Assembly: GCA_003024785.1 (NCBI GenBank)
Contig: PUQB01000185.1
Span: 1 to 64,000, forward strand
Reading direction: 5' to 3'
DNA from: Selaginella tamariscina
Lineage: Eukaryota > Streptophyta > Lycopodiopsida > Selaginellales > Selaginellaceae
DNA length: 64,000 bases
Shown here: positions 960 to 51,529 of the stretch, piece after piece
Layout of the letters: each line of letters opens with the position of its first letter
Numbering within the stretch: position 1 is the stretch's first letter
Notes under the pieces: model-generated
What the model saw: only the letters and a program-made list of their open reading frames with translations
Told to the model about the DNA's origin: nothing
Databases searched by the model: none
Program-made: the position numbers and the translations under genes

Positions 960-1464
960 GCAAGTTGTAACTAAAATGGGCATGGCTATAGTCCCATTTC
1001 CTAATAATTAGCAATTTTAGCTATTTAATTAGCATTTTCTAATATTAAAGGAATATTCTTTAGAATATATGTTTGAAAAGAGAATATTCTTTAGAATATT
1101 CTATTTTGTATTCTACCCTTTAATAAATTATAGCATTCATTGAACAAAAATTAATAACATTATAAAAGTAGAATGTATTAAATTATATAATATATTGCCT
1201 AATATAACAATTAAGGAAGAGCATAAGAGGTACATTATATAAATATTGATGTTGTTATTAAAATATTAATATTTAAATATAACATTATTAATTAAAAATT
1301 TGTAGTAGTAATAATATATATATAAAATCCTATAATAATATAGTCAATCTTCCATATCATTTTTTAAATTTATATAGTTAAGTATACAATTTGGTACTAT
1401 TATTAAAGAGTTTATAATAATTATGAATATTAAATATATGATATTTTATAATTTTGTAATTGCT
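960..1464. repeat. Element 1 left terminal and subterminal region
   Basis: The terminal inverted repeat is followed by AT-rich DNA with GAATATTC palindromes at about 1051-1110. The same hexamer-plus motif clusters near the right end of Element 1 and near both ends of Element 2. No coding sequence is seen. Confidence 0.55.
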
Positions 1465-4400
1465 TTAAGCTTCAGAAAACATACATTCCCTTGCAGTTTT
1501 GTTAATCGTGACTTTATCAACGCTTCTTGACATCCACCCATATCGAATGGATTTAACATTTATAAAACATGCTGGGTCTTTTTGATTGGGAGACCATGTT
1601 TTCTCTAGGCATCCATTATATCTTTCGCTCTCCTTCTCGTGTCGCCTTTTTTGTGGTTTGAACCATGCAACCTTAACAATACTATTTTTTGTGATTACTT
1701 CAGGTGTGTCGATAATTTGACCCATCCAAATAGGCTGATTATATGACGCATCTGGAGTAATGAGAACCATCATTAGTTTTTGAAGATCCTTGCAGCAATC
1801 AAAGTATGCTTTAGGTTTTTGGTTCCTTTGTCCAACAAAGTGTGGGGTTTGCACTTCCACATCACTACTGGCTTCTATGTCGTCTGTGCTCAGTGATGTC
1901 ATTTCAATCTCCTCTCGCCACCTTGTTTTAGGCCAGAAAGGGTGTTGCAATTCTGTACTTGTGACAGTAGGCCCTTCCAACTCTCGAACAACAGTCTCCC
2001 AATAGTTGACCACATGCTTATATAGTTCTGAGTAACCAGTTGCCTTATCAGAATTCTTTGGCATCGATTTTTGAACCCATGCCACATATTTTTTGATGCC
2101 ATCAATAATAACCTCTTGTTCCTTGAGCTGGGCACTCAATGGAATAGGGTCTGGTTGTCCTTCTGGGAGAAGTGGCTTTCCATCCTCTCCACTTTTGAAG
2201 AGCATTAAGCCCTCTTTCGGTAACCACTCCTGCTCTGATGGCCGTAACTTGTACTGCATAATAGGTATACCATCTCGTATGGAGAAAAAGAATTGTAGCG
2301 GCACAAGGTGACCAACTAAAGAATCACTCCCTTCTTTTATATACTCCTTGAGAAATTTTTTGAAGTCTGGCACCTCAGTCACAAGCAAAGCACAACTTTT
2401 TTTGGAGATGCAATTTTCAAAAAGATTCATCATATGCGGTAAGGTAAGTGCACTTGTCCTTTTTGTAGAGTTGGAGACCTTGCTGAAGAACGCATCAATA
2501 TCTTCATGAGTGTGACCAACCATAAGGAAACTGAGCGTGATTGTTTCAAACACACCTTTGGCAACAAGCATTGACAAGTATGCTAGCACATATCTAGAAA
2601 ATAAAAGTAAGTATGAGCTTGAGAAACCCTTAAGTAAAATGATTTACCTATTTTTGTTCTCGCCTGCACAATTATCCATCTGTAAAAGCAAATGACGAGG
2701 AAGCTTATTTGATGTTGAGGACACATGTACACTATTTGAGCTAGATCCCTCCACTGAACCTGAACTCTCAACAGGGCCATCTGTTTTTTGTGCAGGTTGC
2801 TGACAATGCCTCTCATATTCCCAAGTAGCCTCAAGTGCAGACGTGTTCATGAGAGCATTATGTAAAGGTTGAAGGTGTTGTTTCTTCACTTTGAGATCAC
2901 TGATAGGACTTGTCTGTGAGTGGGCTTCAAGGTTTCTGAAACACATGGCTAACGACCCAATAGTGAAATTGGAGTCGCTAGACCAATGTGGAAGTGAAAA
3001 GTGTCCATATGACTCACAACCGTGTCCATGTGTTAGCACACCTGTCAAAATCGGAAGTTTCATGACATTTCCAAGGCACTTTGGTGTTGCAAAGAGCTTT
3101 GGAATGCTGGTCTTTGAATGATCCATCTTGTCATGGATCAAGCACAGGTACTCTGATGGGCGTGACACAGAAAGCATGCGGTGTGCATAGTACTGAGACC
3201 GCAAGTTTGTTGTGCAATCATGTGGGCCTCCATCTTCCTTTGAATGGTAGTGATCTCCACCAAGGTTTTTGCACAAGCCTCTGCAGCCTTCAATGATGTA
3301 CAAGTGTCACACTTAGAAAAGCTAGAGTGTTTTGCAATCTCCACATCCTTAAAATGAGTATTCCATATGTTGTTGAAGGTACCAGTGCAGATTGCTTGGA
3401 GCCCCATCAAACTGAGGCACTTGTTCACATGTTCACACAGTTTCAATTGAGTGTAGATTGAAGGTAAAACCTTGAGATTTTCCCTGACCCCTGCATTTGT
3501 GGTTCGGCATTTGTGAGGCATCCTGTCTGCATTTGCTTCCACAAAAGCCTTGAGTATCTCTATGGCTGCCATGATGTGAGAGCGGGTTTTGACCAAGCCA
3601 GTGTTCCCATGAACTGAGGTTCGCGCTCCATCTAGCCACTCATCCCTCCGACGGTAGAACGTGGTCTTTGGGATCCCGTATATACTGTACCAAGCTTTGA
3701 AGCAGATGGCCACCTTATTAAATACCATGGATGTACTCTGATAACCTGTGTCCGAGGCCATTCCATCAATACACCCAGTTAGTGCAGCATATACAAACTC
3801 ATGCCTTTGCTTTTGGGTGAGCATACGAAAGACATGTCTACATTGGGTAATTTCATTCCGGTCTGCCATCTGACAACACTTCTTCTTGCAACAGTCAATC
3901 GTGGAAATGCTCGTAACACTTTCGGAAGATGTAGGATCCATCTTTACCCTCTTGCTGAAACTTGCAGGGGAAGATCTACAACCCATGAATCGCCTTTTTC
4001 TTACAATAGGACCAATGCAAGGAACCTCTTCAAATATGAGTTGTTCTTCCGGGTTGTTATTATTGAAATCCAACCCAGAATATGTTGAACCATCTTGCCG
4101 TCTTAATTCAGATGTTCGCCACCTCACGAGGGATCCAGGATACAATGTGCCATTAGGTGAAACCTCTGTCACAACTACACCCACGAAGTCGGACCCTAGT
4201 TTCTCTTCTGACACTGCTTCCATTGGATTTATAGCTGTGATGATGCCTCTTCCGACTTCAATCTCACGAAGAAAGAGAATCACCTCATCCATCACAGCAG
4301 GCAAGCCATCATCTGGTAAACTCGTGCTACTATTTGTTTGTGACTCTGCATATTCTGTGTCAGCCTTGACTTCATCCAAATTCCACAATACAGGAGAACC

Positions 4401-4592
4401 CTCCTCAAATTCCATTCCCAGAACCTCAACATGCTTGTAAATGGTGTTCACCCATACGTACACACAAGATCCTTGGGCAATATTGTGACATGATGCATTA
4501 TTATCTCGAACTTCCACAGTTCCAGTGCCAACTATCTCGTTGTTCCGAAGAAGACATACTTTATCTCCAGTATTAAACATATTGTCCTGCAC
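1465..4592 (-). CDS. DUF7869-type transposase-like protein, two exons, one frameshift
   Basis: Exon 1 runs 4592-2648 and exon 2 runs 2593-1465, with a normal GT..AG intron between. The C-terminal half has the DUF7869 signature: MDNCAGENKNRYV spans the splice junction, then SFLMVGHTHEDIDAFFS. I recognise this as an RNase-H-like transposon protein domain common in metazoan and non-seed-plant repeats. Upstream are a CC/C-rich zinc-knuckle-like segment (CCKKKCCQ), a KCDTC motif and a LIHDKMDHSK block. The N-terminal 200 residues look like chromo/SH3-type beta repeats, which is inference. A single-base frameshift near 3200 separates the KCDTC part from the rest of exon 1. The gene is divergent from the ParB/methyltransferase gene, across the palindrome arrays. 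Catalytic role in transposition is inferred. Confidence 0.75.
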
Positions 4593-4734
4593 ATAAATAA
4601 TTGTATTATTTATGATATCTGTTTATGCAATATTTTTAAGAAATCTGAATTACGGTTACTTAATAATATGCATATGCAATAATACATAATTATGTTTAGA
4701 GATAATATCTCATGTTTGATTAATACAACTGATG

Positions 4735-5540
4735 GGCGGGATTAATCCCGCCCACGAATCCCTCCGACGAGGAACGGTCGGCGGGATTAATCCCGCCGCC
4801 GACTCAACCCCTTCGGAGAGAGTCGGCGGGATTAATCCCGCCTTGGACTCCCTCCGACAAGGAAGAGCCGGCGGGATTAATCCCGCCGCCTCCCCCTGGG
4901 GGAGTCGGCGGGATTAATCCCGCCCGACTCCCTCCGACAAGGAAGAGCCGGCGGGATTAATCCCGCCGCCTCTCCTCTCGGGGAGTCGGCGGGATTAATC
5001 CCGCCGACTCTCTCCGACGGAAGGGAGTCCGGCGGGATTAATCCCGCCGACTCATCCTCGCCGGAGAGAGTCGGCGGGATTAATCCCGCCGGACTCCCCG
5101 AGGAGGAAGAGGCGGCGGGATTAATCCCGCCGGCTCTTCCTTGTCGGAGGGAGTCCAAGGCGGGATTAATCCCGCCCACAATTCTTACGACGGGGAATGG
5201 GTGGCGGGATTAAACCCGCACATAACTCTCTCCAAAACTATGATTTCAAAGAGATCTCGGGATAAATCCTGTCCCCAAATCTTTAAAACAGGGAAGTGGT
5301 GGCGAGATTAATCCCGCCACCCCTTCCCTGCCTCCTAAAATGGTTGGCGGGATTAATCCCGCCGACAACTCTTTCTAATAAATTCTGGTAACTCTTCATC
5401 AGTTGAGAAGGTTATCGACGGGATTAATCCCGCCACTCTTTTTCAGTGGCGGAGAAGCATTGCCCGGGAGATGGTGGCGGGATTAATCCCGCCACTCTTC
5501 AAAGAGGCGAAAAAGAAATGGCCGGATTAATCCCGCCGCC
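4735..5540. repeat. Palindrome array 1 of Element 1 (about 17 copies)
   Basis: About 17 recognisable copies of the palindrome CGGCGGGATTAATCCCGCCG, most perfect over 16-20 bp, recur every 35-60 bp. Spacers are related to each other (gactccctccgac and similar), so the unit is about 40 bp. Copies degrade toward 5200-5540 (for example ggataaatcc at 5258). The array starts about 140 bp upstream of the transposase start codon. The GC content contrasts sharply with the AT-rich surroundings. Confidence 0.9.
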
Positions 5541-8500
5541 CCGGTTAACCTAGAATATTAAGTTAAAAGGATATTTAAACGGGATAAATCCCTAACGGAA
5601 TATATTATAATCCTAATGCATTCTAAACCCCTAAATTGTAATTTTAAGAGAGAATGTAAGAGAGTGAATCTTATAAGTATTTTTAAATTTGTTTATAATA
5701 CTTACTTGTAAACAGCACTGAAGGCGCCGTGCTTTCCTATAAAGAATAGCACCCAATTTAATCTCGCTCCTGAGATGATCACTATGAAGAAAAAAGAAGA
5801 TCTAAAGAGTGAAAAATACAGAAATGAAGAAACCCTTGCCGGAGAAAGAACCAGATCTGAATTTGAGTGGGAAATTAAATGCATTTTCAAATTTACATGT
5901 CAGACCGACAATACATATGTCAGAAATTCAAATTTTTTAAAAAGAACAGAAAATAAAATTTAAGATGAGTTGACACAAATATCCGACACTCTGACATATA
6001 TACTCTCCAGTTCCAATGAGTATTTTAAAATTGCATTTAATGTTATTCAAGTGATTCAAGCTGTTTAATATTACGAAATTTTAGACTATATTCTACATTC
6101 TTAGTATTCAAGTATATTTATATTATATATATATATATAAATATATACTTATACAATAAATAAATTGATATATTATTATGTATCATTTAAAATATATTCA
6201 TAGTCTGTTTATTATTATTATTTTCTTAATTACTCGAGTATTTAGTTTTCATTTCCTAGTATCAATGGGATATTCTTTAATATTTTATTAATATTTGAAG
6301 AATATTCTAATATTAAACCTGATTATCATAATTAAATTAGTCTTGTTCTTAATTATTGCAGTAATTATTCTACATTTGTATATATTAATGGGATTTTCTC
6401 AATTAATTTGTTATTATTTCAAGAATATTCATGTGTTAAACCTTATTATCAATATTAAATTAATACACACTATGAACATATTTTAAATTATACATAATAA
6501 TACATCATTTTATCTAATATATAGTCATATATAGTTTTAATAATATATATATTAATATCATTTCCTTAATTACTTGAGTAATTAATCTTCTTTATATTAA
6601 TGGGATATTCTTTATTATTTTCTTATTATTCCAAGAATATTCCAATATTAAACATGATTATGATAATTAATTTAGTTAATTATTTGAGTACTTAATTTAC
6701 ATTTGTATATATTAATGGGATTTTCTCAATTAATTTCTTATTATTTCAAGAATATTTCAATGTTAAACCTTTTTATCAATATTAAATTAATATATATTAT
6801 TAAAACTATATATGGCTATATATTAGATAAAATCATATATTATTATGTATAATTTAAAATATGTTCTAGTGTGTTTATTAATATTATTTCTTAATTATTC
6901 GATGTTTGTTTTGCACACATATATAAACACAATCATAAATTTACACACGCATTACAAGAACTTACAAAAACACATATGCACACACATGCACAACCCTAAA
7001 CCAAACTGAAGAAATATGTTGCTTCTTTATTGAAAACATCATGTTCAACGCATGTATGATATATGTACTCAATCTGTGTGTATGTAACACATTGAATTTA
7101 CATGTGTAATATTTATATTAAGCTTGTTGGGAGCTAAACCCTAAACCCTAACCCTGTGTATACATGTGTGTACAAAAATAATTTTTCAACACTCTCTCTT
7201 CACACCATGCATGATCCATCCTAAACCCTAAACCCTAAACCCTAATATGTAACACAATGAATTTACTCATGTAATATGTATGTATGTCTGTGTGTATACA
7301 CGTGTGTATGTATATATGTGTACTTTTCTGTCTTCTCTCATACATACACCATGCATGATCCATGTTAATATGTACTGTCTCTCTTCTCTCAAACATACAC
7401 ACCATGCATGATCTATAATATGTACTCGGTCTCTTAATATTATGTACTAATATGTATGTATGTCTGTGTATAATACACACCATGCATGATCCATAATATG
7501 TACTGTCTCTCTTCTCTCATATACTATGTATGTATATCTGTGTATAATATGTGTAAGTATTTATGTGTACTAATATATGCAATGTGTACAAAAATAATTT
7601 TCAACACTCTCTCTTCTCTCATACATACACCCATGCATGATCCTCCTAAATCCAAAACCCTAACCCAAAACCCATGTAATATGTATGTATGTCTGTGTAT
7701 ACACGTGTGTATGTATATATTATGTGTATTAATATATGCAATGTGTATGTATGTATTGATACACATGAAACTTTAACACTCTCATGGACACACACATGTT
7801 AAATCCTGCATGATTTATATTTTTGGGGTGTATGTGATACACCCACGCACACGCACGCACTAATAATATAATGAAAGAATATTCGTTTAGGGCGAATCTA
7901 TATTTTATTCTTTTTAGGGTTTAAGTATATTCTCAGAAGGAATATTCTATTAGGGTTAATATATATATTTAATTCCTTTAGGGTTTAGGTATATTCTTAG
8001 GGTTTCAAGAGGCGGCGGCTGTGAAATCGGCGGCGCGGCTGTGCACACAGGTGAGATCTGTGTGTGTGTGTGTGTGTATGTGTGTATGTATGTATATATG
8101 TATAGGAGTGTGCGATAAATTTATTTATTAGTTTTATCTTCTCGCACACACACGCACACTCCTGTGTATGTATATGTGTGTGTGGTGTGTGTTTGTTTAT
8201 CTGTATGATTTTATTTGTTTCGCTCACACATGCATACACACGATATACATATACACATATATATATATACCTATATAACATACATATATTATGTGTACCA
8301 GTATCTGTAAATTTTTTTTTATTGATCTATCTCTCCACACACACGCACACTCCTGTGTATGTATATGTGTGTGTGTGTGTGTGTGTTTGTTTATCTGTAT
8401 GATTTTATTTTGTTTTGCTCACACACGCATACACACAATATTACATATACACATATATATATAATTAATACATATATACATACATACAACACTAGTTTAT

Positions 8501-8826
8501 ATATATGCTTATATATTCACAGACTCTCTCTCTTTCTCTATGGATTATATATCTATACACCATATATATGTGTGTGTTTATCTGTATAATTTTATTTATT
8601 TATTAGTTTTATATTTCGCACACACACGCACACTCCTGTGTATATATATGTTGTGTGTGTGTTATTTATCTGTATGATTTTATTTGTTTCGCTCACACGC
8701 ATACACACGATATACATATACACACATACATATACCTATGTACACACATATATTATGTGTACCAGTACTGTATAATTTTATTTATTTATCTATCTCTTGC
8801 ACACACACGTACACTCCTATACATAC

Positions 8827-8869
<43 letters not shown>

Positions 8870-8947
8870 TATATATATGTGTGTGTTTTTATCTGTATAA
8901 TTTTTTTATTTATTATTTTATCTCTTGCACACACGCTAAGCCCCTCG
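5541..8947. repeat. AT-rich, minisatellite and telomere-like core of Element 1
   Basis: No gene is supported. Direct repeats of about 340 bp occur at roughly 6230-6470 and 6570-6800 (shared block around attaatgggattttctcaat). From 7060 to 7790 a degenerate tandem unit combines catgcatgatcc, tatgtatgtctgtg and short (CCCTAAA)n runs at 7134-7155 and 7221-7245. From 8040 to 8935 a minisatellite of about 200-250 bp repeats gttt-atctgtatgatttta with flanking (CA)n and (TG)n tracts four or five times. Reading frames here encode only microsatellite peptides. Confidence 0.7.
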
Positions 8948-10530
8948 AGCGGCGGGATTAATCCGCCGCTATAGGTTTATGGCCTCGGCGGCGGGATTAA
9001 TCCCGCCGCTATATGGTTGGGGCCATGGCGGCGGGATTAATCCCGCCGCCGAGGCTTCACGCAGGCTATGGGCGGCGGGATTAATCCCGCCGCTCTACGA
9101 CAAACCGAAGAGCGGCGGGATTAATCCCGCCGCCCATGGCCTGCGTGAGGGGCCTCGGCGGCGGATTAATCCCGCCGCTCACCCATGCCCTGCGCGGAAT
9201 GCGGCGGGATTTATCTCGCCGGCAATGGCCTGTGTGAAGGCCCTAATGGGCGGGATTAATCCCGCCGGATTCTGCGCAGGGCATTTACAGGGATGGGCGG
9301 CGGGATTAATCCCGCCGCTCATGAGGCTAACCGAAGAGCCTGCATGAAAGATCTTGCACGGAAGGCTAACCGAAAAGCCTGCATGACATGTCCTGCGCGT
9401 AAGGCGGCGGGATTAATCCCGCCGCCCAGGGAATTCACGCAGACATGAACGCCGGGATTAATCCGGCCCCACGCTCATGCCCTTCGCGGAGGGCGGCGGG
9501 ATTAATCCCGCCGCTCAGGCACTTCCGCAGGATATAAGCGGCGGGATTAATCCCGCCCCACCCATCCCTGCCCATCCCTGTTCAAAAATGCCGCAGCCAA
9601 TATATATGTGTGAGCGCATGATTTACGAGAGGGCGGCTGGATTAGTCTCTCCGAACCTTCATTAATCCTCCATTGGTATGTTGAATCAATCCCGACTAAC
9701 TCTCTGAGACGGAGAAGGTTTACAAAATACCAATGGAGGGAACTGAGAAGGGTGGTGGGATTAATTTCACCATCCCTTACATGGTGGGCGGGATTAATCC
9801 CGCCGTGTACGCATGCCCTGCGCGGAATCGGGCGGGATTTATCCCGCCGCCATTGGCCTGCCTGAAGGGCCTAGGCGGCGGGATTAATCCCGCAAGATTT
9901 CGCACAGGGCATTGGCGTTCGGCGGGATTAATCCCGCCGACTAAGGCCCGAGTGAAGGGCCTGGGAGGCGGGATTAATCCGCCGCGACGCAATTCCCTGC
10001 GCGAATCGGGCGGGATTTATCCCGCCGCCATTGGCCTGCCTGAAGTGCCTAGGCGGCGGATTAATCCCGCCCGATTCCGCGCAGGGAATTGGCGTCCGGC
10101 GGGATTAATCCCGCCGCATAGGGACCGAGTAAGGCCCTGGGCGGCGGGATTAATCCCGCCGAGTCTTCAATGCCTGTTGGAGGAATGAATCCCGCCACCC
10201 TTCCTTTGTTTTCTCCATTGGTGAGTCGGACCAATCCCAAACGTTTCTGTCTGAGACGTAGAAGGTTTTCAACATACCAATGGAGAGAATTGGGAAGGGT
10301 GGGGAAATTCATTTAACCATCACTTACATGGTGGGCGAGATTAATCCCGCCCCTTTCTGGAGTCACTGAAGGGGTGTGAGAAATAAATCCTGCCCAGTTC
10401 TCTCTGAGACCGAGAAGGGTGGCAAGATTAATTCCGCACTCCCGTTCAAGGCCTCCAGAAAGGTGGCGAGATTAATCCCGCCCACTCTTTCAGGAGGCAT
10501 TGAAGGGGTGGCGAGATTAATCCCGCCGCA
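8948..10530. repeat. Palindrome array 2 of Element 1 (about 25-28 copies)
   Basis: The same CGGCGGGATTAATCCCGCCG palindrome as array 1 recurs about 25-28 times at roughly 40-50 bp spacing. Variants include a ggatttatcc core (9202, 9831, 10010). Spacers form a second family, with ccctgcgcggaat and ggcctgcgtgaagggcc blocks in both orientations. The 3' copies are degenerate. The array ends about 340 bp upstream of the first ATG of the ParB/methyltransferase gene, so the two arrays sit at the 5' ends of the two divergent genes. Confidence 0.9.
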
Positions 10531-10867
10531 CCTTCCATGTGAATATATATGTGTATTAGTATATATAAGTTGCATATCTCATTTTATTTACTTTTATCAT
10601 CTTATCATAATATTTCGAGTAAAAGCTAGGAATCTATGTAAAACTGTCCAGAGCTCACATTTGTGGTGGTTCTAAAACGAAATGTTATCTTTCTTTTGCA
10701 CTAACACAAATGAGCTTCGGACAGTTAATTACGTCTACTTCTCTCTGTGTATTATTTTTGTATATTCGGGTTTATACAAGTGTGTGTGCGTTTTTATATA
10801 ATTTTATTCATAGTGTATTATTTTGCAGAAGGACGATTTGATCAAACAAGGAGATCGAGTCATTAGT

Positions 10868-13800: not shown

Positions 13801-13968
13801 GATATTAGACCGGAAGTTATCTCGAGGAGTACAGAACATTCGCACACTCCAGGACCCATGGAAACATCAATAGAAGATGCAGAAGATCTTGAACCATCTC
13901 ACAAGCGGCTTAGACCTTCTTCGCCTCACTCAGAAGGTAATAGCGAAGAAGAATTGATAATGAATTGA
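10868..13968 (+). pseudogene. ParB-like plus DNA-methyltransferase-like protein of Element 1, frameshifted
   Basis: Apparent exons are 10868-10890, 10948-12263, 12325-13169 and 13223-13968, all with GT..AG borders. An N-terminal region of about 240 residues is not recognised. A ParB/Srx-like domain follows: YPCRVKYCSVNPN, then PLNQERVAELMEKM, then ISGQHTITAAQRLL (11960-12003), matching the family's terminal GxHR-like block. A Lys-rich linker leads to a methyltransferase-like region with a motif-IV-like strand FQLFVMDRR (about 13065) and a motif-I-like strand WVFDYCTRGS...FAVEKD (about 13560-13640). Neither keeps the canonical DPPY or FxGxG residues. The tail is Ser/Glu-rich. Frameshifts occur near 10960, 11955, 12085, 12860, 13500 and 13705, so this copy is probably dead. 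The domain order equals that of the Element 2 gene. Confidence 0.6.
12280..12301. repeat. Solitary Element 1 palindrome variant in an intron
   Basis: The sequence gggcgggatttatctcgccgg resembles the array palindrome with a TTTAT core. It lies in the intron between exons 2 and 3 of the ParB/methyltransferase gene, about 1.7 kb beyond array 2. Confidence 0.6.
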
Positions 13969-14039
13969 TAGATGAATAGTTGTAAATGAGTGTAACATAA
14001 GGCATTTTTGTATATTTCTTTTATATTTGTACAGAAAAT

Positions 14040-39749: not shown

Positions 39750-41726
39750 ACATTAACACACACGCACACAGAGTGTATATTGTCTACTCAATTACTTGAT
39801 ATTTTAAACTGCAAGATTAACGGTGGTAACAAGAAAAGAAGTATATATATGTACTTTTATAGAATTTTATTTTTAAAAGTACATAACTCCAAACCAATTA
39901 AACATATATATTGTAGTATGATATAATTATTTAATATGATGGCAATTTATACTTATTTCATTTCATTTGCTATAATTAAATATATATTTATATTTTCTAA
40001 AACATAATAAAATAATAACAAGAATATTTAATTAATTTTGAAACTGCCGTTTTTTTTGTTTAAATAAAAATATATATTAAACATTGTTAGAAATATGTTT
40101 AAATAGATTTTGTTTCATTTCTAATTACTTTTTACATTGTTATAATATATAATTACTAAAATTTAAAATATTAATATTAATATTAAAATTATTTATATGT
40201 TTTGATTATTTATTAAGTTTCCAAGGTTCAACAATAGTTATCGTGTGTGCATCTTGTTTACAAGAGTTTGGGATTTTATTTGAAGTTATCACTTTGAAGT
40301 GTTGAAGTTTATAAAGGAAATAAAAAATTTATTTAAAAGTTAAAATACATATTTTTAAATACCTAAATATATCAGACCTAGGTGGGTTTTTTTCTTTTTT
40401 AAAATTGGGTACAGGGCCATGAGGTAATTTTGTAATGGACTTTTATATTTTTACTTTTTGTTCTAAGAGGGATTCAAATTTTGAATAGTTATAACCATAG
40501 GTGAGATTCAGATTTTCAATGGATATCAGTGTAAATGAAGTAAAAGATGAGAGAGAGAGACCAATTGTTTATATATAATAAAACTTAGATATGGATTTAA
40601 AAGAATGAACTATTTTTATAAATGATAATAATTTTAGAGATAAAATAGTTTTTTAAAAATTGTTAAAATCAAGGTTGGGATGGTTTGTATTATATATTTA
40701 CATAGTTTTATTAAGGTATATTTATAAATTTGTAAGGTTTCGTAGATAAAGTGTTTATTGAAAGTCAATGCACCCGTGTGACATATAGGGTCGCTCCTTT
40801 GTGTAAATAAGAGAAATGTTAAGGGTATAAGTATAATTTTCTCTTAAAGTATTATCATTTAATATTATATAATATTTGCATTTTGAAAGTAAAGCATACT
40901 ATAGAAAGAGAAATTATATTATATATACATTTATTTATAAATACACGAAAATAATTAGTAATCGTAAGTTATAATAAATTAAATTATAATTTTACAAGTT
41001 AAATATTATTAATTATAAATATTAAAATACTTGTGAAGAATATATATATATTTAAATTTGTATAAATATATTCAAAATTAGCTTATTATTTTATTACGTA
41101 GCTCACTGATATATATATATATATTATATATATAATATATATATATATATATTATGAATATGAAGCATAACCAAGTTTCTTTAATTTAAATAGTTAATAA
41201 GGATATTCAAAAATTAAAGCATTTATGATATATTAATATATTAGAGCAAATATATATATAAACACAAAAATATACATGATATATTTGCATGTGTATAAGA
41301 GAATATTTAAACATTATTATTTAATAATACACAAGTAATTAAGAAGTAAAAATATACATGAAAAATAATAAATATTAGAAGACTATATATTTCTAAATTT
41401 ATATGATAAAGGGATCAATTTTTAAAACCATTGAGATGGCAGACACTATAGAAAATGCATGCTTGATAAGTCTAGCCCCACTGTTTTCCTGCTTGAGAGA
41501 TCCTCACCTGTGTGTGTGTGTGTGTGTGTGGTGCCGTTGTTTCTTGAGTCTTTTAGGTGCATAAAGAAATTCTTAAAACTTCAGATGGGTTTTCGACGAC
41601 CCAATCATGTTTTTCAAGCGGAAGAAAGACCTTTACACATATAGTATTTCATTTTCTACTGAGCAATGTCTACAAAGCAAAAATGACATAAGATGCTTAT
41701 TAAAATGCATTAAGCTGTTAATAAAA
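39750..41726. other. AT-rich spacer before Element 2
   Basis: No gene is seen. TA palindromes occur at 41115-41155. The segment at about 41520-41690 (gtttcttgagtcttttaggtg, ctacaaagcaaaaatg) is homologous to 53120-53290, marking a segmental duplication on either side of Element 2. Confidence 0.5.
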
Positions 41727-41893
41727 AGAGGATTGGCAAAAACCGGCTTTACAACGGGCTTTTCGCATATTCCCGAATATCCAGGAATATTCTATCAAAT
41801 AAACGGGATTATCTTTAACTTTCAATATAAAATGCCGACCAACAAGTGAAAAACGCTAATTATTTGCCGACTAGACTTTACTATACCGACTAC

Positions 41894-44800
41894 TTAAAAG
41901 GTCGCAGGTTCGACATTGCGCTTGCAATCAACCAATAACCGATGCACTTCTGCTGGAGTAAGGGTCCGCCTCTGTAAGAAGTAAGTAATCGTTGGGTCCA
42001 ATCCAAGAACATGAGTGTACACAAAATACATGTGTTGGCAGGGGCTCCAGTTCTTGGCTTTCTGAAAAGTTGCACAAGTGCATGACGGAACAGTAGAAAT
42101 TGTTACCTTAGCAGATTGCATGCCTGCAGAGACAATGAAGGCCTCAGTCTTCCCTCTTTGAACCACCTCCACGTTGTTGATCCGACCTTGAAGAATCTTT
42201 GCCTGGTTGTAATGTTTCTCATGTTCCTTGGACATTCTTGTTGGTGTTCGCACACTCCGTCCATGGTATGTTGGTACTCTATGTGCTCCCTCTCCTCTTG
42301 GTGGTGATGGTGTTCGATCCATTCGGCTACTACTGTCGTCTACCATTTCTTCAAATCCCTCCAACTTGAATCCTGCTTTCAGAAGAGCTTCAACCTCATT
42401 TGCATTCAAGTTTGTTCCTTTTTGAACTGGCCAAACCTCTGGAACTTCTGGAATACTCTCAGGAGGAATCCCTGCATATGGTCGTCTGAAGCAACAAGAA
42501 TCGCGTGGGCAGAACCATAACATCTGATGAGTGAACTCAATGTTCCCAAATGCATTTGTATATTGCCGTCTACCGTGAAATCCTGGTGCCGGTACACGAT
42601 GTGGATATCCTATGGGTCTGCCACACTTGCTGTTACCGTCCTGAGTGAGACCTAGACATTTCACCTGACTTGCCTCCCCAATGCGTCTGATGGCCCACTG
42701 AGTCATCAACGTCTCTCTTTCAGTGACATTGACATCTTGAAACTTGAGTTTTTTCCTGCGTGCATTTGGGATGACTTGTTCTGCATATTGTGTGTCATGT
42801 CTATGTGTACGAAGTGCATCAATCCCATGGTCCCCAGTTGACGGTTGACGAACGGTTCGAACACGAACATTTGTTGTAGAGGCAAACTCTGGACTTGCAA
42901 GATGCTCTTCATCACTAACAAGATTTGCAAAAGTTGTTGGAGACACTGATTTTCCCGCTGAAAGTTTCTGCTGTGCACGTTTCAGAAGAGTTTCCATGGA
43001 AGGACCTGTGGCCTGAATATCTCCCTTCAAATGATGCCTTGACCTTTGCACTTTGGAAAACAGCATCTGTTAAATCTAACATTGTTGCCTCCAACAAAGG
43101 AACACGCTTCGTCAGCCTTGCTCTTCGTGCTCTTGCATGAACAACTTCGGAGTTGTTAGTGGTAGGCACATTCGCAACACCATCTTCTGTCAAGTCAATT
43201 ATCTCTGTCATGGAAATATGATCTTCATGTCTTGCCCACCATGACAGCCATGTTTGCAAAGCGCTAACGTTACTGGACCTGCCTTCCCAAAATGACTCCA
43301 ACATTACTCGTCGTTCCAACTTATCTTGGTTGGTTAGTGCTGCAGGCCATGAGCGTGCAAGGTTCATGTGCTCCTCCCTGTGTTCCTCAAGTATCCACTT
43401 CTTTGTAACTTGACGCACTGACTGCATGTAATGGAACAAACAACTCCTTTCTCTTCCTCTCATCTTTGACCCATTGTTGAAAACTTGACGCAATGCTAAC
43501 CAAATTGCACCTGACTCATCTGACATGAACCCCGCAAAGTTCACATTATGAAGTCCTTGCTTGCTGCACACTTGAAGCATAGTGTTCAAAAATTTGATCA
43601 CCGCCACACTATCCTCCCTGATCATGTCACCATAAGCAAGTGTCACCATCGACCTTAAACTACACAAACATAAGTGCATTATATTAGTAAGTATTTTAAA
43701 ACATAGATATGTTAATACTTACAATGGATCATAGAGATGTATTCCCAGTGTACACCAATCATCAATACGATATGTGTGGTCTAGCACCACCCACTGCTGT
43801 TCGAGATCACCTCCAGATTGACACCTTCTAATGTAGTCTATTCCGGATCCTGGGCCGGCAACGTCATTTTGAAGATTAAAGGCTGCTCTTCAGCTCCGTT
43901 GAGGTCCATTCCGGGTATGTGGATAACATGTATGAATGGGATTGATAGCTTCTTCTTTAACTGCAGAAGTCCTTCGTAACCTTCTTTGAAACGAGTGTCT
44001 CTTGTTCTAGCCTGAGATATCCATTCTCTTGTTCTACATTGGAAAGGTTAAGCATCTCCAAAAGGAAATAATAATTTTTTTGCTTACCGGCGGTGATTTG
44101 TGAGTGGTAGTAGATCTGACAGAACCTTGTCGTATGATACATCTCCAGAATCTGTTACCAGTTTTTCCAAAATTATATTGCGTGCTGCTTGAAACTCTAT
44201 GACACGTTGATTAGTTCTTGGGGTTGCAGCGACTGCTTTGTTGATTGTCTCCTTAGCTCTGTCTTTAGAGACCATGGATTCGGGTGGTCTACGTGGGTGT
44301 TGATGTTCTCCAAGATGGATGAAAAGCCTCGTGCATGTGATATCATCTGGAATTATGTAATATGCAACAACGGAGCATGTCTGCACTAGAAGGGGCTCAT
44401 TGTTGCAATGCACACACTTCATTCCAAGCACTCTACCATCTGAAGATAACTGGACTTTATCAATGGTGCCCTTAAATTGGCAGTCATTTGCTTTCTTACT
44501 GAAGCTGATGAACGGACATGTTTCCTTTACGCATTTCATGTGGCCAATACATGAACTGCGACTAACACGAGCTGGAACATTCCAATGTGTTGTGCAGCGT
44601 TGAGTCCAGTAATCACACCCATCCTTCCTATTCATCCCTTTGTACTTGTCCTTCATTGTTTCGTGTGCTGGCAACTCGTAAATCACATTTCCGTTGCAAT
44701 CTTCTGGGACCTCAGCAACTTGCTGAATCGATGACGAGACCACCAGTTGCTTCCCAATCCTACATCTCTGACTATTGCGAAGTATTGTTACCATAGAATT

Positions 44801-45067
44801 GTCCCGATCTGTTGTCTCCAACCGGAATAGCGGTCCTTTGGAAGGAAGAAGTGTGTAATACACAAAACTGCTAGCTCTTGCCCCTTCTGGTTCTACCTCA
44901 ACATTCGCAGCATCTCCACCAACAACAGACATCAAATGCAGCACTTTAAAAGATTGCCAAGGTGGAATGTCAAATGCAGACCTGAGATCTGTTTCAAAGA
45001 CAAATGCAATACCATCTTCATCTGCAGGGAAGTCCTTGTCAACACCATTGTAGCTGATTCTTGCCAT
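41894..45067 (-). CDS. MULE transposase with N-terminal zinc finger and C-terminal SWIM domain
   Basis: Exons run 45067 (ATG of MARISYNGVDK; an in-frame ATG also lies at 45109) to 44088, 44033-43723 and 43659-41894. A Cys/His-rich N-terminal region (CDYWTQRC, CVKETCPF, CTRLFIHLGEHQHP) resembles the WRKY-GCM1/FLYWCH-type fingers of MULEs. The catalytic region follows: VVLDHTYRIDDW (first Asp), GFMSDESGAIWLAL (second Asp) and RSCLFHYMQSV. The SWIM zinc finger SCTCATFQKAKNWSPCQHMY is near the C-terminus. It should cut and rejoin the element ends. Frameshifts near 43880 and 43030 interrupt the frame, so this copy may be non-autonomous. It is divergent from the gene at 46113. Confidence 0.8.
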
Positions 45068-45558
45068 GTAGCAAAAATGGAACAAACAAAAGTTAAAATT
45101 CAAAGACAATGAACATATTACACACGATGGTTAATGTGTTTGTAGTCGTGAGGCAATCATTTCATTGACAAATATTAAAAATAATATTAATTGCGTGCGT
45201 CTGGGTAGAAGAGTGAAATTAATTTACTGCGTCTGGGTAGGTTTTTTGTAAATTAAAAAGTTTTACTATGTACAAGTGGCGATCATGCATGCAATATGTT
45301 TACAGAAATTAGGTTGGTTTTTAATTGATTTAGGGCGGCTAGGGTTTTGCAATTAGGGCGGCTAGGGCAGAGGGCGGCTAGGTTTTCGTGGAGCAGGGCG
45401 CATTTGGGGGCATAGCGTGGAGCAAGTGTGGCTCCAGGGATTAATCACAATAGGCTTCCATTGAGGGGGTGAGTATTTTCTGATTTCTTCATGATCTGCT
45501 CATGATCTTTTCATGATCTGTTCATCTTTTTACATCTCTTCACAGTTGCAAGAAATCC

Positions 45559-46027
45559 GAGTCCTGCCGACTCGGACTGACTTCGTTGTCCGTCCCAGTC
45601 GGCAGGCCGACTGGGGTGGACTGTTCCAGATCCAGTCAACATTTTGACCGGGGTTGACTGTTCCAGCCCCAGTCAGCATTTTGACTAGGGTTGACTGTTC
45701 TAGTCCCACCTAGCATTTTGACTGGGCCTTGCTTCGTTCCCAGTCCCAGACTGGGCCTCCCTTTGTTGCCAGTCCCAGTCGGCATGCCGACTGGGCCTCC
45801 CTTTGTTGCCAGCCCAGTCGGCATGCCGACTGGGACTCCCTTTGATGCCAGTCCCAGTCGGCATGCCGACTGGGCCTCCCTTTTGCCAGCCCAGTCGGCA
45901 TGCCGACTGGGACTCCCTTTGATGCCAGCCCAGTCGGCATGCCGACTGGGACTCCCTTTGATGCCAGCCCAGTCGGCATGCCGACTGGGACTTACAGCAA
46001 CTGCTCTCTCAGTCGGCACGCCGACTG
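45559..46027. repeat. Palindrome array of Element 2
   Basis: The perfect 18-bp palindrome CAGTCGGCATGCCGACTG occurs six times from 45776 at about 38-44 bp spacing, with one-base variants at 45596 (centre CAGG) and about 46009 (centre CACG). Weaker half-site copies (ttttgactggggttgactgtt) fill 45620-45740. Spacers are ggactccctttgatgccagc or ggcctccctttgttgcc. It lies about 490 bp from the transposase start and 85 bp from the ParB/methyltransferase ATG, the same layout as in Element 1 with a different sequence. Confidence 0.9.
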
Positions 46028-46112
46028 TGAGGGCTAGTATGTTTTTTTAATTTTTATTAAACATCTTTGAACATTTATTACAGTTTTTTGTTAAACCTTA
46101 TTGCTTTTGTAG

Positions 46113-49100
46113 ATGCGCTCTTCACAACGTTTACAAGAAAAGAAGATGAAGGAGCCTACTGAGAGAGAAGCAGAAGCTAGAGCTGCAATTCAGAGAGGGC
46201 GTCGGGGTCGTGGGAGAGGAAGTAGGAAGCTGGCTGTGGTTCAGGAACAAGGACCTTCAAGTGATGCTCCAGTTGAACAGGCAAGCCAGCAGGACTGGTC
46301 AGGAGAGCAAGAGGATGTAGTTCAACCCCAACAAGAACAATCAGACTTTGTTGAAGAAGTTGAGGATGATGTCTTACCACAGGAGACACAGGAGCAGACA
46401 GAAGGCACACAAGCCTCATGCGCAGTGACTTTGTCGAGTGACGAAGAGGATGAACCCAAGAGAAGAAGAGACGACGCAAAGCTGCTGGAGATTCAGAGGC
46501 TGCTAAGAAGAAGAAGAAGGGAAAGCAGAAGTGCCAGATAATGAGGAAGTTTACAACATTGCAGCCAGCATGCATTCGGAGAGTGCAGTGCGTCTTCTCG
46601 CGAAGATCACAATCCGAGAATATGGAGAGGCACCGGATGTCCCTATTTGCCGAATTCTGGGAAATGAGCAGGTGCGGAGAGTCAATCCAGCGGATCTGGA
46701 ATCTTTGACTAGGAGTTTCAAGAAGGCAGTTGGTTATTTGCGCAACACCACTCAGTTCATCCTTCAAGTTGGGGACCCCATGACAGATGCAGATCTGGCA
46801 GCATTGAGAAGCGATGAAGCGATGTATGCTCAGCATTTGGCTTTTGAGGAGGAGCTTCAGTCGACATGTTCCGGCAATGGGCACCAATGCTTTCGATGAA
46901 GAAGTTCATCTGTTGGGATGGTAATCACAGGCTAAAGGTGCTTCAGAAGCTGTACACAGAAGACACGGAAGATAAAATCAGTGGGCAGTGAGAGTGCGTT
47001 CAGGCTTCATCCGTGCTGGGGTCATGGATAATCTTCAGCTTGTGACAATGTTTCAGCAAATTAATAGGTAAACATAGTGACCTCTAGATCATAGGATTAA
47101 CTAACTTCGAGATTTTCAAATATGCAGTTCCTCCGCAACGGCAGTGCAAACCACACTGCCACATCTTCTGCTATCTGTGAAGACATGTTGCACCAGTGAG
47201 GAGGGCACAGCGAAGATCTTGGCCAGGCTCAGTGACAAGGAACGAGATGACATAAGAAAGTGGAAGGAAAGCGCGCTGGACAACAAGCTTGGCATCCACT
47301 TCCGAATTTGATCTGTGCAAAGATTTTTTTGAGGTACCACGTCTCACACTTATATTACTTAGTTGATTACGTCTGTGAATTACAGAGTGAGATTGAGGAT
47401 GATCTTGAGAAGGCTGCAAGGGCATCCAAAGGCAACAAATACCAGGAGCAACAACAGGTCTACATTAAGCATGACAAGCGCATGATGAAGATCTTAGCCA
47501 TCATCGATCCTGCATTGGGTGAAGAGTGGTTCGACAAGGTGACCCAAATCACATGGAAACAATGCAGATGGATGGGGTTGGAAAAGCTGTACGCGCTTTC
47601 AAGGGCGAGAATTCCAAACGAGACGAGAATCATGTACTTCAATAAACTGGTACGTCTCGATCTGAAGAGAGAGCAAGAGACACTTGGATTGCCGGGTGTT
47701 CAGGATAAGGAGTGGATAAGGTGGTTTACTATCGATTTGTATTGGCGGCAATCAGAGAGGAGGCAGTACAGATTCTCACGGGACTCATCGAGGATGGCGA
47801 GTGGAGCAGGCCGGTTACAGATTTCACGACTTGGTACGATGAAGTGCGGGTAAAATGCAAGAACGTGATGTTCCAGCCATTCCATGAGTGTGTGAAGTTC
47901 ACTTACTCCATAGAGCCGAAAGAGTTCCTCGAACACGAAGAGACAGCAAGAAGGATGATTTGGAGGTAAGGATGATCTTCTTGACATTGTTACATTCTGA
48001 CACTACTATATGTTCATTACAGGTATGTCGCAGCGAGAAAGGTGCCTCACACACAGACTATGGTATTCTGGTCAGATTACATGGAAGCACCACACATGTG
48101 GTCGAAGACAAGATCTGGCCTGACAGAGTTCGAGCGTGTACACGTACCGTTCTGGCTTGATTATCCACCTGGGCAACCACCAACATGGGAGAAGGATCTC
48201 TACAATGAACACTCAAAAGATCTCCCATGCATCTCATGGGATCCGGCAGAGGTCGACTTCATTAAGAAGACAAAGGCCAAGGCAAAGCGGCGTCAGCCTG
48301 TGCAGCAGTCAAAGAAGACCTCAGATACAGTAGCTGGCACCTCCACTACTCGCGATCCAGCTGCCTTCTTCAATTTATCTGAAGTGCTACCATCGCAGGG
48401 AACCATGGACATCAAGGATGACTTGGTCACATTCGTCCCTTCACTTGCTACAACTCGAGGTGATAATTTCTTGGCGATTGATGACATCGAGGAGATGCAA
48501 CAGGCCGTGCTCACGGATGAGAAGGAAGAGGAGGTTCCTGACGCTAGACTGGTTCCTTATAGAAAAGTTCAGACACAGGTGGCCAGGTACCATACAGCTG
48601 ACAGCCAGACTCGCTACCAGCATATTGCGGGAGAATATGGTTTCAACTTGGTGATCTTCGACCTTCCAAATGGGACCTTGCCAGGAAATACAACGAGTGA
48701 TACGCCATACCTCTACCTTGATCCAGTGAAGTTCGATGAAGCACTCCAGTTTGCAGGTATGCATATGGCTGCAAATGGTTGGTTGGTTGTGTTTGCTGCA
48801 GCAAACACCTGGGATCAAGTTGTCCGAGCTGCAAGTGTGGTGGACCTTCAACTTGCTGCAACGTACTACATCTACAGAGGGCGTGGTTGGGGCTACCGCA
48901 ACAAGATGAAGGTACTTTTTTCTTTATTCATGAAGTTCATTAATGATTTTTGATGTTTTAACAGGAGAGCATCCTGCTCCTTCTTGTCTTCCAAGATGCA
49001 TCTAGAGGATTGCGCGATAATCCGCTGCGTTTGTCATCAACAATTCTTGTTGATAATCCTGAGCGGTTCCAAGAACCATGGTAGGCATTTCATTTCAACA

Positions 49101-49438
49101 ATTAAGTATTTACCATTATCTTCACATGCAGGATGGACTACCAACCGAAGAGCACTCGATTGATGCAGCTCGTGATAGAACGACTCACCCGGCCAGGTGA
49201 TCTTATCTGGGATATAGGCAGTGGTACGGGGTCCTCAATGCTTGCAGCTATCGAGCTGGGGAGAAACATTGTTGGGACTGAGAAGAACCCTGAGCTCGGG
49301 AGAATTGCTATGAACAGGATTAAAGAGAACATCCAGCCAGAGGAAATCCCAACCCAACCAATAGCGACGTCAAGTAGGACCAAGGATTGGCGTTCTGTGT
49401 TTTTTAAAGTACCGGGAACACGAAAATACTTTGACTAA
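46113..49438 (+). CDS. ParB-like domain plus beta-class DNA (N6-adenine/N4-cytosine) methyltransferase
   Basis: Exons are 46113-47067, 47128-47333, 47386-47965, 48023-48911, 48965-49080 and 49132-49438. The N-terminus has an AT-hook-like RRGRGRGSRK and an acidic region. A ParB/Srx-like domain follows: DVPICRILGNEQVRRVNPAD, then FICWDGNHRLKVLQKL. After a helical middle region comes the methyltransferase in permuted (motif IV before motif I) order: NLVIFDLPNG at about 48647-48673 in the DPPY position, then KSTRLMQLVIERL and the SAM-binding DLIWDIGSGTGSS...GTEKNPE at 49200-49300. Motif I is canonical; motif IV is DLPN. Frameshifts in A/G-rich repeats near 46480-46530 and near 46890, 46990, 47290 and 47715 interrupt this copy. 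ParB-methylase fusions are known to me from bacteria and phages. Confidence 0.7.
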
Positions 49439-51129
49439 AAAACTTTGATTAAGAACTTTTGTGTTTTCTTTAATATTTTTTTTTAAAAAATCCACATGGA
49501 TGGTATATTCAAATAATATTCTATTTTTCAAATTATATAGCCATGTTAACATTATTTTATTCCACATTTTTATTTTTTTGCCACGTTAACATTATTTTAT
49601 CACATCTTTATTTTACCACATTAGCATTTTGTTTTTAAATTTTACCACATCAACACTTTTTTTTTAACATACATTTGATAATTAAATTAGCAACTTAGCA
49701 AAGCCTATGTATATAATTAATCATTGTTGTCGTAGTATCATTATTCTACATTTCTAGATTCCCAAGCATATTTTCCCTTTAAAGTTACCTCCCCAGCATG
49801 AACTCACCAACGCTAGCTCTAGATGCAATCCCTCACCATTCGATTGTGGTATCTCAGCTACCTCCCGTTCACCTGAATAAATATATTTATTATAAATGCA
49901 TGTATATGAGAAAGATAAGATATAACATTAATAAATAACCATAGATATATGAAATGCCATATCTTAAGAGAATTATATTTTAACAAGTGTTATCCATACC
50001 CATTTTTAGCTACACAGTGCATACATGTGTGCGTGTTGCGTGTGTGTGTGTGAGGGAGAGAGAGAAAGAGAAGAGAGATAGAGGAGAGAGGGGAGAGGAG
50101 AGAATAATTTACCAGATCATAAATATAAATATCCCCATTGTAGGAGCCCATGTAATACAGTGCTAGAGGATAAAAAATTTAAGAATTTGATTAAATAAAA
50201 TAAATTAAATTTGATTAATTAATAAGTAAAATAAAAAAATTGTCTCTTTGCGTGTGTGTGTGTTTACCTTGCAACAGGGGAGAAATAGCATCTAATCAAC
50301 GTTTGTAAAACCTTATGCCCTCTATATACATCAAAGATTCATCACGAAGGTGTCTTCTCGTGCATAAATGCTATGAGACTCTCATTTATCTGTAGTCCCA
50401 TCTAAAAGTGGGCACCAGATTGCTTCACAAACCTGTTATATGAGTTAGTATCACACACACACACACACTTATGGATTCACCATCACTTATTCTATTCCAC
50501 ACTTCCTCTTCATCATCACATAATCCCATTCTGGGTTGTGTAATTTTACCACCATCTGTAATTATTCAGTAAGGATGCACTTGCTGTTAAACGCTTTCGT
50601 CTCGTTCTCTTTCATCTGATTCGAAATGTCTTCCATTGGAATCCTTGACATGACTGTAGCCTGCAGTGTAAGTTGAAGACTCAGAACAGGAAACTCAAGT
50701 CTCACAATGCTGCTCCTCCTTAATCCACTCTGTCATGCCCTCGCTGTTGGCTATATCCTTAGAAGAGCCAAGATTTGAACCCCAACCAGTTGACACTTCT
50801 CCGAAAAAAAAAATTTGCCCACCGCCCTTAGGGCCACGTAATAATTTTAGCTGGCAGTAAAATGCTTAACATAATGCCATGTCATCATTGATTCATGCCA
50901 CATATGCAAATAATCTTTGTAAATGTTGTTTGTGATAATTTTAAAGGTATATTACGTATATTCATGTGTTTTTTGAAGTTTTTTAAAGTTTTCTTCTTAT
51001 TAAGAACATGTTTTTGTAAATTCACGATGTTCTTGTGTTCCAAGAGTTTTTTACCTTTGGCAAAAACCCTGAGTAGGACTGGTGGTTCACGAATTGCAGC
51101 ATTGTTCAATCGTAAGAAGAAGTGACAAG
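49439..51129 (-). other. Right-hand non-transposase part of Element 2 with coding-like minus-strand fragments
   Basis: Minus-strand stretches at about 49870-49755 (GLHLELALVSSCWGG) and 50800-50560 (STGWGSNLGSSKDIANSEG; SRIPMEDISNQMKENETKA) look like exons but are broken by stops and match no family I recognise. They may be captured host-gene pieces. A plus-strand segment ending at 51125 reads SRTGGSRIAALFNRKKK before a stop and could be a terminal exon. The rest is AT-rich with GT/GA tracts at 50030-50100. Confidence 0.3.
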
Positions 51130-51260
51130 TGTTGAATTGTACTCTTTGGTGTTGAAATAAAACTTTAATAATACAGTATAAACATGGTTATGATTGTTGA
51201 ATTGTACTCTTTGGTGTTGAATATAAAACTTTAATAATACAGTATAAACATGGTTATGAT
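51130..51260. repeat. 65/66-bp tandem repeat near the right end of Element 2
   Basis: Two nearly identical copies (51130-51194 and 51195-51260) begin tgttgaattgtactctttgg and end aacatggttatgat. They lie about 160 bp inside the right terminus and are followed by GAATATTC motifs at 51305-51365. Confidence 0.9.
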
Positions 51261-51529
51261 TTAAATATTTTTTGTTGTTAATTGCCGACTGAGCCAAAAT
51301 CCTAAATTCTAAGAATATTTAAGAATATTCTAAGAATATTCTGGTAGATTCTTTAGAATATTCTGGGTCCAAAAGCCCGGAAGCCCGAAAGCCCGGAAAG
51401 CCCTCTTTTTGTCGGGACTCTTTAATAAAAGAGCGTGATTCCTTCACCAGTTAGTCATTACGTACCTATGTTATCCCAATTTAATTCGATAGGTAAACTT
51501 TTTTTCATGTGTGTATTTAGCATAACACA

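Follow-up and report, generated by a model that had tools for sequence, protein, structure and literature searches.

Two DNA transposons of Selaginella tamariscina each pair a divergent accessory gene with its own palindrome array, a candidate target for self-recognition

Why do two DNA transposons with different transposases each carry an array of its own palindrome beside an accessory gene, and what might act on these arrays? The question arises from a 64,000-nucleotide stretch of Selaginella tamariscina DNA (the window), in which a preliminary description had recognized a three-part module repeated in two elements: a transposase, a divergent accessory gene and an element-specific palindrome array. 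The present analysis found this module in both elements, and in both of them the minus-strand transposase gene diverges from a plus-strand gene, as had been described. The sample consists of these two elements, and the accessory gene is broken in both.

Element 1 (958-15690, 14.7 kb) is a DNA transposon with a DUF7869 gene, a ParB-like gene, a NIF-phosphatase-like gene and two palindrome arrays. Its TIR sequences (958-984 and 15664-15690) are identical at 25 of 27 positions, and an empty site was found, in that a paralogous stretch around position 33127, in opposite orientation, aligns with the joined flanks over the junction. The direct repeat CTCCAT, read from the sequence at 954-959 on the left and 15691-15696 on the right, marks a target-site repeat of 4-6 bp, the limits of which are ambiguous because AT also begins the TIR. 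The putative transposase gene (1468-4622, minus strand) matched Pfam PF25273 (DUF7869) with E=2.7e-45 on the joined translation and with E=1e-26 and 3.6e-12 on its separate pieces; a literature search for DUF7869 returned no paper. The third gene (14177-15402, plus strand) encodes an NLI-interacting-factor (FCP1/SCP-type HAD) phosphatase-like protein, with Pfam PF03031 at E=5.7e-11 on the joined translation and E=1e-4 on the first piece.

Element 2 was given candidate limits of 41727-51421 (9.7 kb), on the basis of a 9-bp direct repeat and inverted ends. The repeat, TTAATAAAA, is perfect and flanks the element at 41718-41726 and 51422-51430, but it was picked among many short repeats; the target-site duplication of MULEs is typically 8-11 bp. 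The inverted ends are weakly similar (17 of 30 positions), and no empty site was found, since the flanks match the paralogue separately and fail, when joined, to align over the junction. The putative transposase gene of this element (41894-45067, minus strand) encodes a SWIM-like finger, the matches for which (E=0.01 and 0.027) are both under the curated Pfam cut-off, and the Pfam scan of its hand-joined translation contained no MULE transposase domain. Comparison of the main ORFs of the two transposase-like genes, in three of the nine possible pairs, revealed no similarity (best E=0.77). The earlier assignment of the two transposases to DUF7869 and SWIM-MULE was upheld for their difference and for DUF7869, whereas SWIM stayed below the cut-off and no MULE domain was matched.

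The accessory gene of element 2 (gene 2; 46113-49438, plus strand), a broken copy of about 1020 amino acids when read through, has a methyltransferase domain, and only in this gene is the sequence evidence for such a domain solid. PF01555 was detected by Pfam at E=5.8e-9, and hhalign placed a beta-class N6A/N4C DNA methyltransferase domain at 48567-49342 (plus strand) with a probability of 94 over 204 columns, a result equalled by 0 of 60 shuffles. Its motif I, DIGSGTGSS, has the best motif-I score across the six frames of the window. The usual form of motif IV is [DNS]PP[YFW]; gene 2 has DLPNG at this position, and the canonical catalytic form was not seen. A ParB-box-like motif, GNHRLKVLQKL, was located in gene 2 by alignment as a motif only (KKFICWDGNHRLKVLQKL; 46899-46953, plus strand) and was not significant: 2 of 60 shuffles scored as high, the hhalign probability was 0.9%, and the search of the gene 2 ParB region against the PDB gave only noise.

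The accessory gene of element 1 (gene 1; 10868-13968, plus strand), likewise a broken copy, was analysed as a read-through translation. It has no significant Pfam domain; a methyltransferase was not found in it by Pfam, PHROGs, hhalign profile or motif-I searches, and a canonical catalytic motif IV was not recognised. Its ParB-like region, LNQERVAELMEKM ... ISGQHTITAAQRL (11698-12270, plus strand), is collinear with the protein P0122 (pairwise E=9e-9), which was the single match to gene 1 at E<=1 among 5800 candidates from the protein set. When the two-sequence profile was compared with bacterial ParB, 0 of 100 decoys were as good, yet the hhalign probability was just 6%, and the best ParB match overall reached 6-7%. 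A ParB-like domain in gene 1 therefore has modest support, solely through this one distant relative. Structure prediction for P0122 with the gene 1 ORF was uninformative (pLDDT 32). The two accessory genes have no mutual similarity (E=0.29). Both had been described as encoding a ParB-like domain followed by a methyltransferase; in the profile searches the methyltransferase of gene 2 and, modestly, the ParB-like region of gene 1 stood, while ParB in gene 2 and the methyltransferase in gene 1 rest on motifs that failed the statistical tests.

In the 5.8-billion protein set, gene 2 had no homologue at E<=1 among 8000 candidates scored. Viral contigs contained no relative of gene 2, of P0122 or of the A2 alignment, nor did either palindrome occur in them as a tandem pair. 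A phage tblastn search with gene 2 returned 643 records, and the 20 matches listed were mostly methyltransferase-motif matches; the same search with the P0122 region gave no match. The single match of a plasmid search was rejected as non-credible. The A2 alignment had no match in the PDB, NCBIfam gave nothing significant, and PHROGs was significant for gene 2 only. No ParA ATPase gene was present among the gene models scanned (antisense ORFs left out), and no plant-TE domain was listed in the domain scan of genes 1 and 2. The available portions of PMC8226300, PMC12695648 and PMC9477723 yielded no useful ParB content.

The palindromes are concentrated in three arrays. The 18-bp palindrome GGCGGGATTAATCCCGCC has 44 matches at up to 3 mismatches, against 0.03 expected, and 43 of them lie inside two arrays of element 1. 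Array A (4735-5537) has 17 sites, with 13 of 16 spacings of 37-45 bp; array B (8951-10527) has 26 sites, or 29 when 4 mismatches are allowed, with 16 of 28 spacings of 44-46 bp. Between the two lie about 3.4 kb, in large part AT-rich. The remaining match, at 12280, belongs to an exact 20-bp copy (12280-12299, plus strand) of the array variant at 9203 and falls within the coding region of gene 1; apart from it, there is no exact copy of at least 15 bp outside the element 1 arrays. Element 2 has a palindrome sequence of its own, the 22-bp CCCAGTCGGCATGCCGACTGGG, with 11 sites at 45594-46029, where 9 of 10 spacings are 37-40 bp; six copies, at 45774-45989, are perfect and five have 1-7 mismatches. 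Perfect zero-loop palindromes of at least 14 bp with GC>40% number 38 in the window, including 34 inside the arrays, as compared with 0-6 in each of 20 Markov-resampled windows.

From splice-site scores, leader introns were predicted for the element 1 transposase gene (5705 to 4587, minus strand), for gene 1 (8051-10828) and for gene 2 (45469-46112), and these contain array A, array B and the element 2 array, respectively. All three arrays may thus be located in leader introns of element genes. The preliminary description had an intergenic space filled by perfect palindromes of one sequence per element; the element-specific arrays were borne out, but element 1 has two widely separated arrays, imperfect copies occur, and the arrays may be intronic.

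The palindromes are better conserved than the DNA between them. The information per column was 1.91, 1.63 and 1.63 bits in the palindromes of arrays A, B and element 2, and 0.47, 0.26 and 0.88 bits in their flanks. Palindrome identity was 0.97 and 0.87 in arrays A and B, while the mean spacer identity was 0.55 and 0.48, and that of shuffled sequences 0.43 and 0.44. This differential conservation supports the palindromes as candidate protein targets. In element 2 the repeat units are alike in their spacers also (94% matches), and therefore these repeats can be explained by recent duplication. The CpG o/e of arrays A and B was 1.10 and 1.03, and that of the neighbouring transposase gene 0.40. 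CpG retention as a sign of hypomethylation was nevertheless rejected, because most of these CpGs belong to the palindromes (the spacers by themselves gave 0.71, 0.65 and 0.08 for arrays A, B and element 2) and element 2 lacks the excess (0.54 in its array, 0.53 in its transposase gene).

Four known kinds of system resemble parts of this arrangement. In the Ectocarpus DNA transposon Sola1-1_Ec32, a ParB and methyltransferase gene lies opposite the transposase, with green and red algae also cited, and the methyltransferase activity is stated as predicted (PMC12477816, as far as its available text goes). As in that element, the accessory and transposase genes here occupy opposite strands of a DNA transposon, and the accessory proteins are of like size (about 1,000-1,100 amino acids); the Ectocarpus protein joins ParB-like and N4C/N6A methyltransferase domains, which are half confirmed in each element here, and the plant host and the DUF7869 or SWIM-like transposases are different. 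The main text of that paper contains no word starting with 'palindrom'. The VANDAL/VANC system of Arabidopsis, according to the passages available from PMC5735166 and PMC10398659, consists of self-targeting TE proteins whose target motifs recur in tandem within noncoding DNA of the element. The likeness is that of a TE protein with its own short motif, repeated in noncoding regions and introns and differing per family, the motifs here being candidate targets. A further property of VANC is that DNA methylation is lost at its targets. The VANC21 motifs are 9 bp long in a single orientation (YAGTATTAY) and not 18-22 bp palindromes, and gene 2 has a methyltransferase domain. By this analogy, elements 1 and 2 may work like VANDAL/VANC and are not filed as members. 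The parS site of the F plasmid is made up of twelve repeats of 43 bp, in which ParB binds inverted repeats of 16 bp (PMC6238139 and PMC9178275, in part); it resembles the arrays in its tandem 43-bp units and short inverted repeats; it differs in serving bacterial plasmid partition with ParA, and the ParB similarity here is distant. ParB-MTase fusions of phages and bacteria (e.g. Lactobacillus phage T280, L006) have the same domain order, ParB and then a beta-class methyltransferase, but are about 390 amino acids long, have no large middle region and occur in phage and bacterial DNA.

We propose that both elements are DNA transposons carrying a divergent accessory gene of the algal ParB/methyltransferase kind together with its target. 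The accessory protein would bind, as a dimer, to the element-specific palindromes in leader introns or promoter-proximal DNA, would recruit or spread over the array, and would keep the element promoters active through anti-silencing or autoregulation, in the way that VANC serves VANDAL elements. We give an even chance to this proposal, in which dimers of the accessory protein occupy the palindromes of their own element and so sustain its expression; an action against silencing, and the membership of genes 1 and 2 in one family, are what we infer. The centres of the element 1 palindromes are themselves palindromic and almost invariant, which would suit a dimer bound to double-stranded DNA. Alternatively, an active N6-adenine or N4-cytosine methyltransferase might mark its own palindromes, so that the mark, and not the binding, protects or activates the element. 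The significant beta-class fold of gene 2, together with its motif I, and the activity predicted for the Ectocarpus protein (PMC12477816, in the text available), point that way, but the unusual motif IV of gene 2 and the lack of a methyltransferase match in gene 1 make it unlikely, with the proviso that an intact family member may differ in motif IV because the gene 2 copy is broken.

Instead of the ParB/MTase-like protein, it could be the transposase or a further protein of the element that targets the palindromes, which would then resemble the subterminal repeats that En/Spm carries. Array A is directly 5' of the transposase coding region of element 1; however, the arrays occupy internal positions, several kb away from the ends of the elements, and in both elements the leader intron predicted for the accessory gene contains an array, so that this seems distinctly improbable. 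We have little belief in selfish or structural repeats that need no dedicated protein, such as self-copying hairpin-forming palindromes or RNA hairpins in leader introns. The single DNA strands do fold well (-11 and -9.7 kcal/mol, equalled by 3 and 0 of 200 shuffles), the exact copy in gene 1 gives the impression that the palindrome can spread to other places, and the element 2 units are near-identical, spacers included. RNA hairpins are possible, but the element 1 centres, which would be their loops, have no need to be palindromic or invariant, and no further exact copy of at least 15 bp lies outside the element 1 arrays. Least credible to us is that the arrays are parS-like sites at which a ParB-like protein nucleates and from which it spreads, or by which it gathers copies into clusters, like plasmid ParB at the parS array of the F plasmid. 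The 18-bp palindromes mostly recur every 37-46 bp and the 22-bp ones every 37-40 bp, close to the 43-bp F repeats, but this period may merely reflect tandem duplication, the gene models scanned include no ParA-like gene, and the ParB similarity is weak, with a DNA-binding HTH not shown.

The preliminary description had known of no comparable plant transposon system. A ParB and methyltransferase accessory protein is already published for Ectocarpus, as are self-targeting TE proteins with repeated motifs in VANDAL/VANC (PMC12477816 and PMC5735166, from partial texts); what is new here is the combination, in which the transposases differ between the elements and each element has an array of its own palindrome beside the accessory gene, within predicted leader introns. 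A broader and somewhat doubtful reading is that different superfamilies each acquired a bacterial-type ParB/methyltransferase protein with its own parS-like array, a portable self-recognition cassette in leader introns, with its target swapped per element, serving to shield the element from host silencing. It has been suspected that the ParB/methyltransferase genes carried by transposons of eukaryotes act on the element they belong to, by binding and modification, and the portion of the published account available to us names no target. The arrays supply concrete 18-bp and 22-bp candidate sites, and thus make the idea testable by a binding assay. If true, VANC would be joined by another sequence-specific system of self-recognition, assembled from bacterial parts and common to different transposases, in which the element-specific palindrome may be a label, built into each element, that allows the element to tell its own DNA apart.

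The DNA of the window has the look of nuclear plant DNA, and contains pieces of LRR receptor kinases and TTTAGGG-type repeats near 7140-7245. Element 1 (958-15690) was delimited by 27-bp terminal inverted repeats (958-984 and 15664-15690; 25/27 identical) and by an empty paralogous site, and CTCCAT flanks it on both sides. The paralogue at ~33127, on the other strand, lacks element 1, and the joined flanks of the element align with it straight across the junction. Element 1 is therefore a true insertion. To its right lie inverted duplicated segments (16259-17781 and 31458-32823; 73-82% identity), and the copy adjoining them near 33 kb is that empty site. Element 2 (41727-51421) was delimited by a perfect 9-bp direct repeat. 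Its flanks matched a paralogue at 53.1-53.7 kb separately (scores of 81 and 135), but the joined flanks gave no alignment across the junction, and therefore its limits are less secure than those of element 1. The window also contains a copia-like retrotransposon remnant (56984-59658), with a piece of integrase core (PF00665, E=9.4e-5) below the cut-off, and minus-strand GC-rich ORFs of 514 and 119 aa (60571-62448), with a P-loop-like GAKGSGKSTAV and no significant match in Pfam. Its end (63915-64000) matches eukaryotic LSU rRNA (Rfam RF02543, 61.9 bits) and is cut by the edge.

In both elements, the putative transposase gene lies on the minus strand and the accessory gene on the plus strand (gene 1, 10868-13968; gene 2, 46113-49438), in agreement with the preliminary description. 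The transposases had been assigned to DUF7869 and SWIM-MULE. The former was confirmed in element 1 (E=2.7e-45), whereas in element 2 the transposase-like gene had a SWIM finger below the threshold and, in Pfam, no hit to a MULE domain. The two transposase genes had no similarity in the 3 of 9 ORF pairs compared (best E=0.77). Element 1 carries a third gene, absent from the preliminary description, on the plus strand at 14177-15402, which resembles NLI-interacting-factor (FCP1/SCP-type HAD) phosphatases (PF03031, E=5.7e-11, joined translation).

Both accessory genes had been described as a ParB-like domain followed by a methyltransferase. Frameshifts and stops break both. Hand-joined read-through translations were used for the protein tests, in which no relationship between the two was detected. 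The methyltransferase was found in gene 2 but not in gene 1. The C-terminus of gene 2 passed the curated cut-off of PF01555 (E=5.8e-9) and also matched PHROG methyltransferases (best 6.6e-12) and beta-class enzymes of solved structure (best 4.3e-4). With a profile built from 82 ParB-methyltransferase rows of bacteria and phages, one of them a duplicate, hhalign gave a probability of 94 over 204 columns, which none of 60 shuffles equalled. In none of the six frames of the window did a motif I score higher than that of gene 2 (25.7). The usual methyltransferase motif IV is of the DPPY type. That of gene 2 is DLPNG, and catalysis by this copy is therefore doubtful. On the other hand, gene 1 had no significant methyltransferase match in Pfam or PHROGs, and 48/60 shuffles were equally good in hhalign. 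Its motif I scored -1.6 at the expected place, and its best score (3.5), located elsewhere, was reached by 10/500 controls.

The ParB-like domain was not found by Pfam in either gene, and gene 1 gained support only through P0122, its one database relative at E<=1 (database E=0.057, pairwise E=9e-9). The two are collinear over ~180 aa, including ISGQH, and the stretch that they share has a weak DndB match in P0122 (E=0.052, below the cut-off). A profile of both beat 100/100 decoys against the first bacterial ParB box, but with an hhalign probability of only 5.9%. In the two-box ParB test, P0122 outscored 399/400 natural-sequence controls and 299/300 shuffles with both boxes in the expected places; for gene 1 alone, the second box was wrongly placed and 14/400 controls were as good. 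In gene 2, hhalign aligned the motif WDGNHRLKVLQKL to the GHTRYKAAKKL box of bacteria, but 2/60 shuffles were as good (probability 0.9%), and the gene failed the two-box test (28/400 controls, boxes elsewhere).

The intergenic palindromes are element-specific as described, 18 bp in element 1 and 22 bp in element 2, although not uniformly perfect. Element 1 has 43 sites at <=3 mismatches in two arrays: array A, by the transposase gene (4735-5537; 17 sites, and 17 at <=4), and array B, by gene 1 (8951-10527; 26 sites, and 29 at <=4). The array of element 2 has 11 sites (<=7/22 mismatches), 6 of them perfect. Spacing was 37-45 bp in 13/16 intervals of array A, 44-46 bp in 16/28 of array B and 37-40 bp in 9/10 of element 2. 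Information within the palindromes was 1.91, 1.63 and 1.63 bits per column in arrays A, B and element 2, respectively, against 0.47, 0.26 and 0.88 in the flanks. Simple tandem duplication does not explain the pattern in element 1, since mean identity was 0.97 and 0.87 for the palindromes of arrays A and B but 0.55 (14 spacers; shuffled 0.43) and 0.48 (23 spacers; shuffled 0.44) for their spacers. The sites were therefore held while the intervening DNA drifted. In element 2 the spacers are alike too, so that recent duplication is a possible origin of its repeats. The CpG o/e of these spacers is 0.08; the imperfect upstream units at 45631-45726 (sites 45631, 45668 and 45705) are missing most palindrome CpGs, whereas the six perfect copies retain them. 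In element 1 the centres, palindromic and almost invariant, are better suited to a dimeric protein that binds double-stranded DNA than to hairpins of RNA, although single strands of the palindromes fold well with DNA parameters. One array variant (site 9203) recurs as an exact 20-bp copy at 12280-12299, within the coding region of gene 1 and about where the P0122 alignment has a 6-residue gap; the gene may have received a copy of the palindrome or may be its source.

Splice sites were scored with plant-like weights, which were also tried on five introns within the coding part of gene 2. In the minus-strand transposase leader, the top-ranked sites around array A were donor 5705 and acceptor 4586. 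Around array B, donor 8051 ranked first and acceptor 10829 second, and around the element 2 array donor 45469 and acceptor 46113 were both second. From these ranks, all three arrays would lie in predicted leader introns.

The preliminary description named ParB-methylase fusions of bacteria and phages but no plant transposon system of this kind. A comparable accessory protein is already published for an algal transposon. Sola1-1_Ec32 of Ectocarpus is reported to have a 1104-aa ParB and N4C/N6A methyltransferase gene opposite its transposase; green and red algal cases are cited there, and self-binding and modification are proposed (PMC12477816). The idea of such an accessory protein is thus not new. 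The Arabidopsis VANC proteins bind short motifs that recur in noncoding DNA of the VANDAL family to which each belongs, and cause silencing marks to be lost (PMC5735166, PMC10398659). In its logic, the arrangement here matches theirs. A striking structural parallel is the F-plasmid parS array, in which a 43-bp unit with 16-bp inverted repeats occurs twelve times (PMC6238139, PMC9178275); that system has ParA, whereas none was seen among the gene models scanned in the window. Among the literature matches listed, with subscription journals thinly covered, none linked palindrome arrays to ParB/methyltransferase-type genes. Both transposons are real, and so are the element-specific palindrome arrays that lie next to their accessory genes. 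These genes probably belong to the known, little-studied ParB/methyltransferase class, although the proof is incomplete. What is new is the candidate target arrays and their recurrence with two different transposases.
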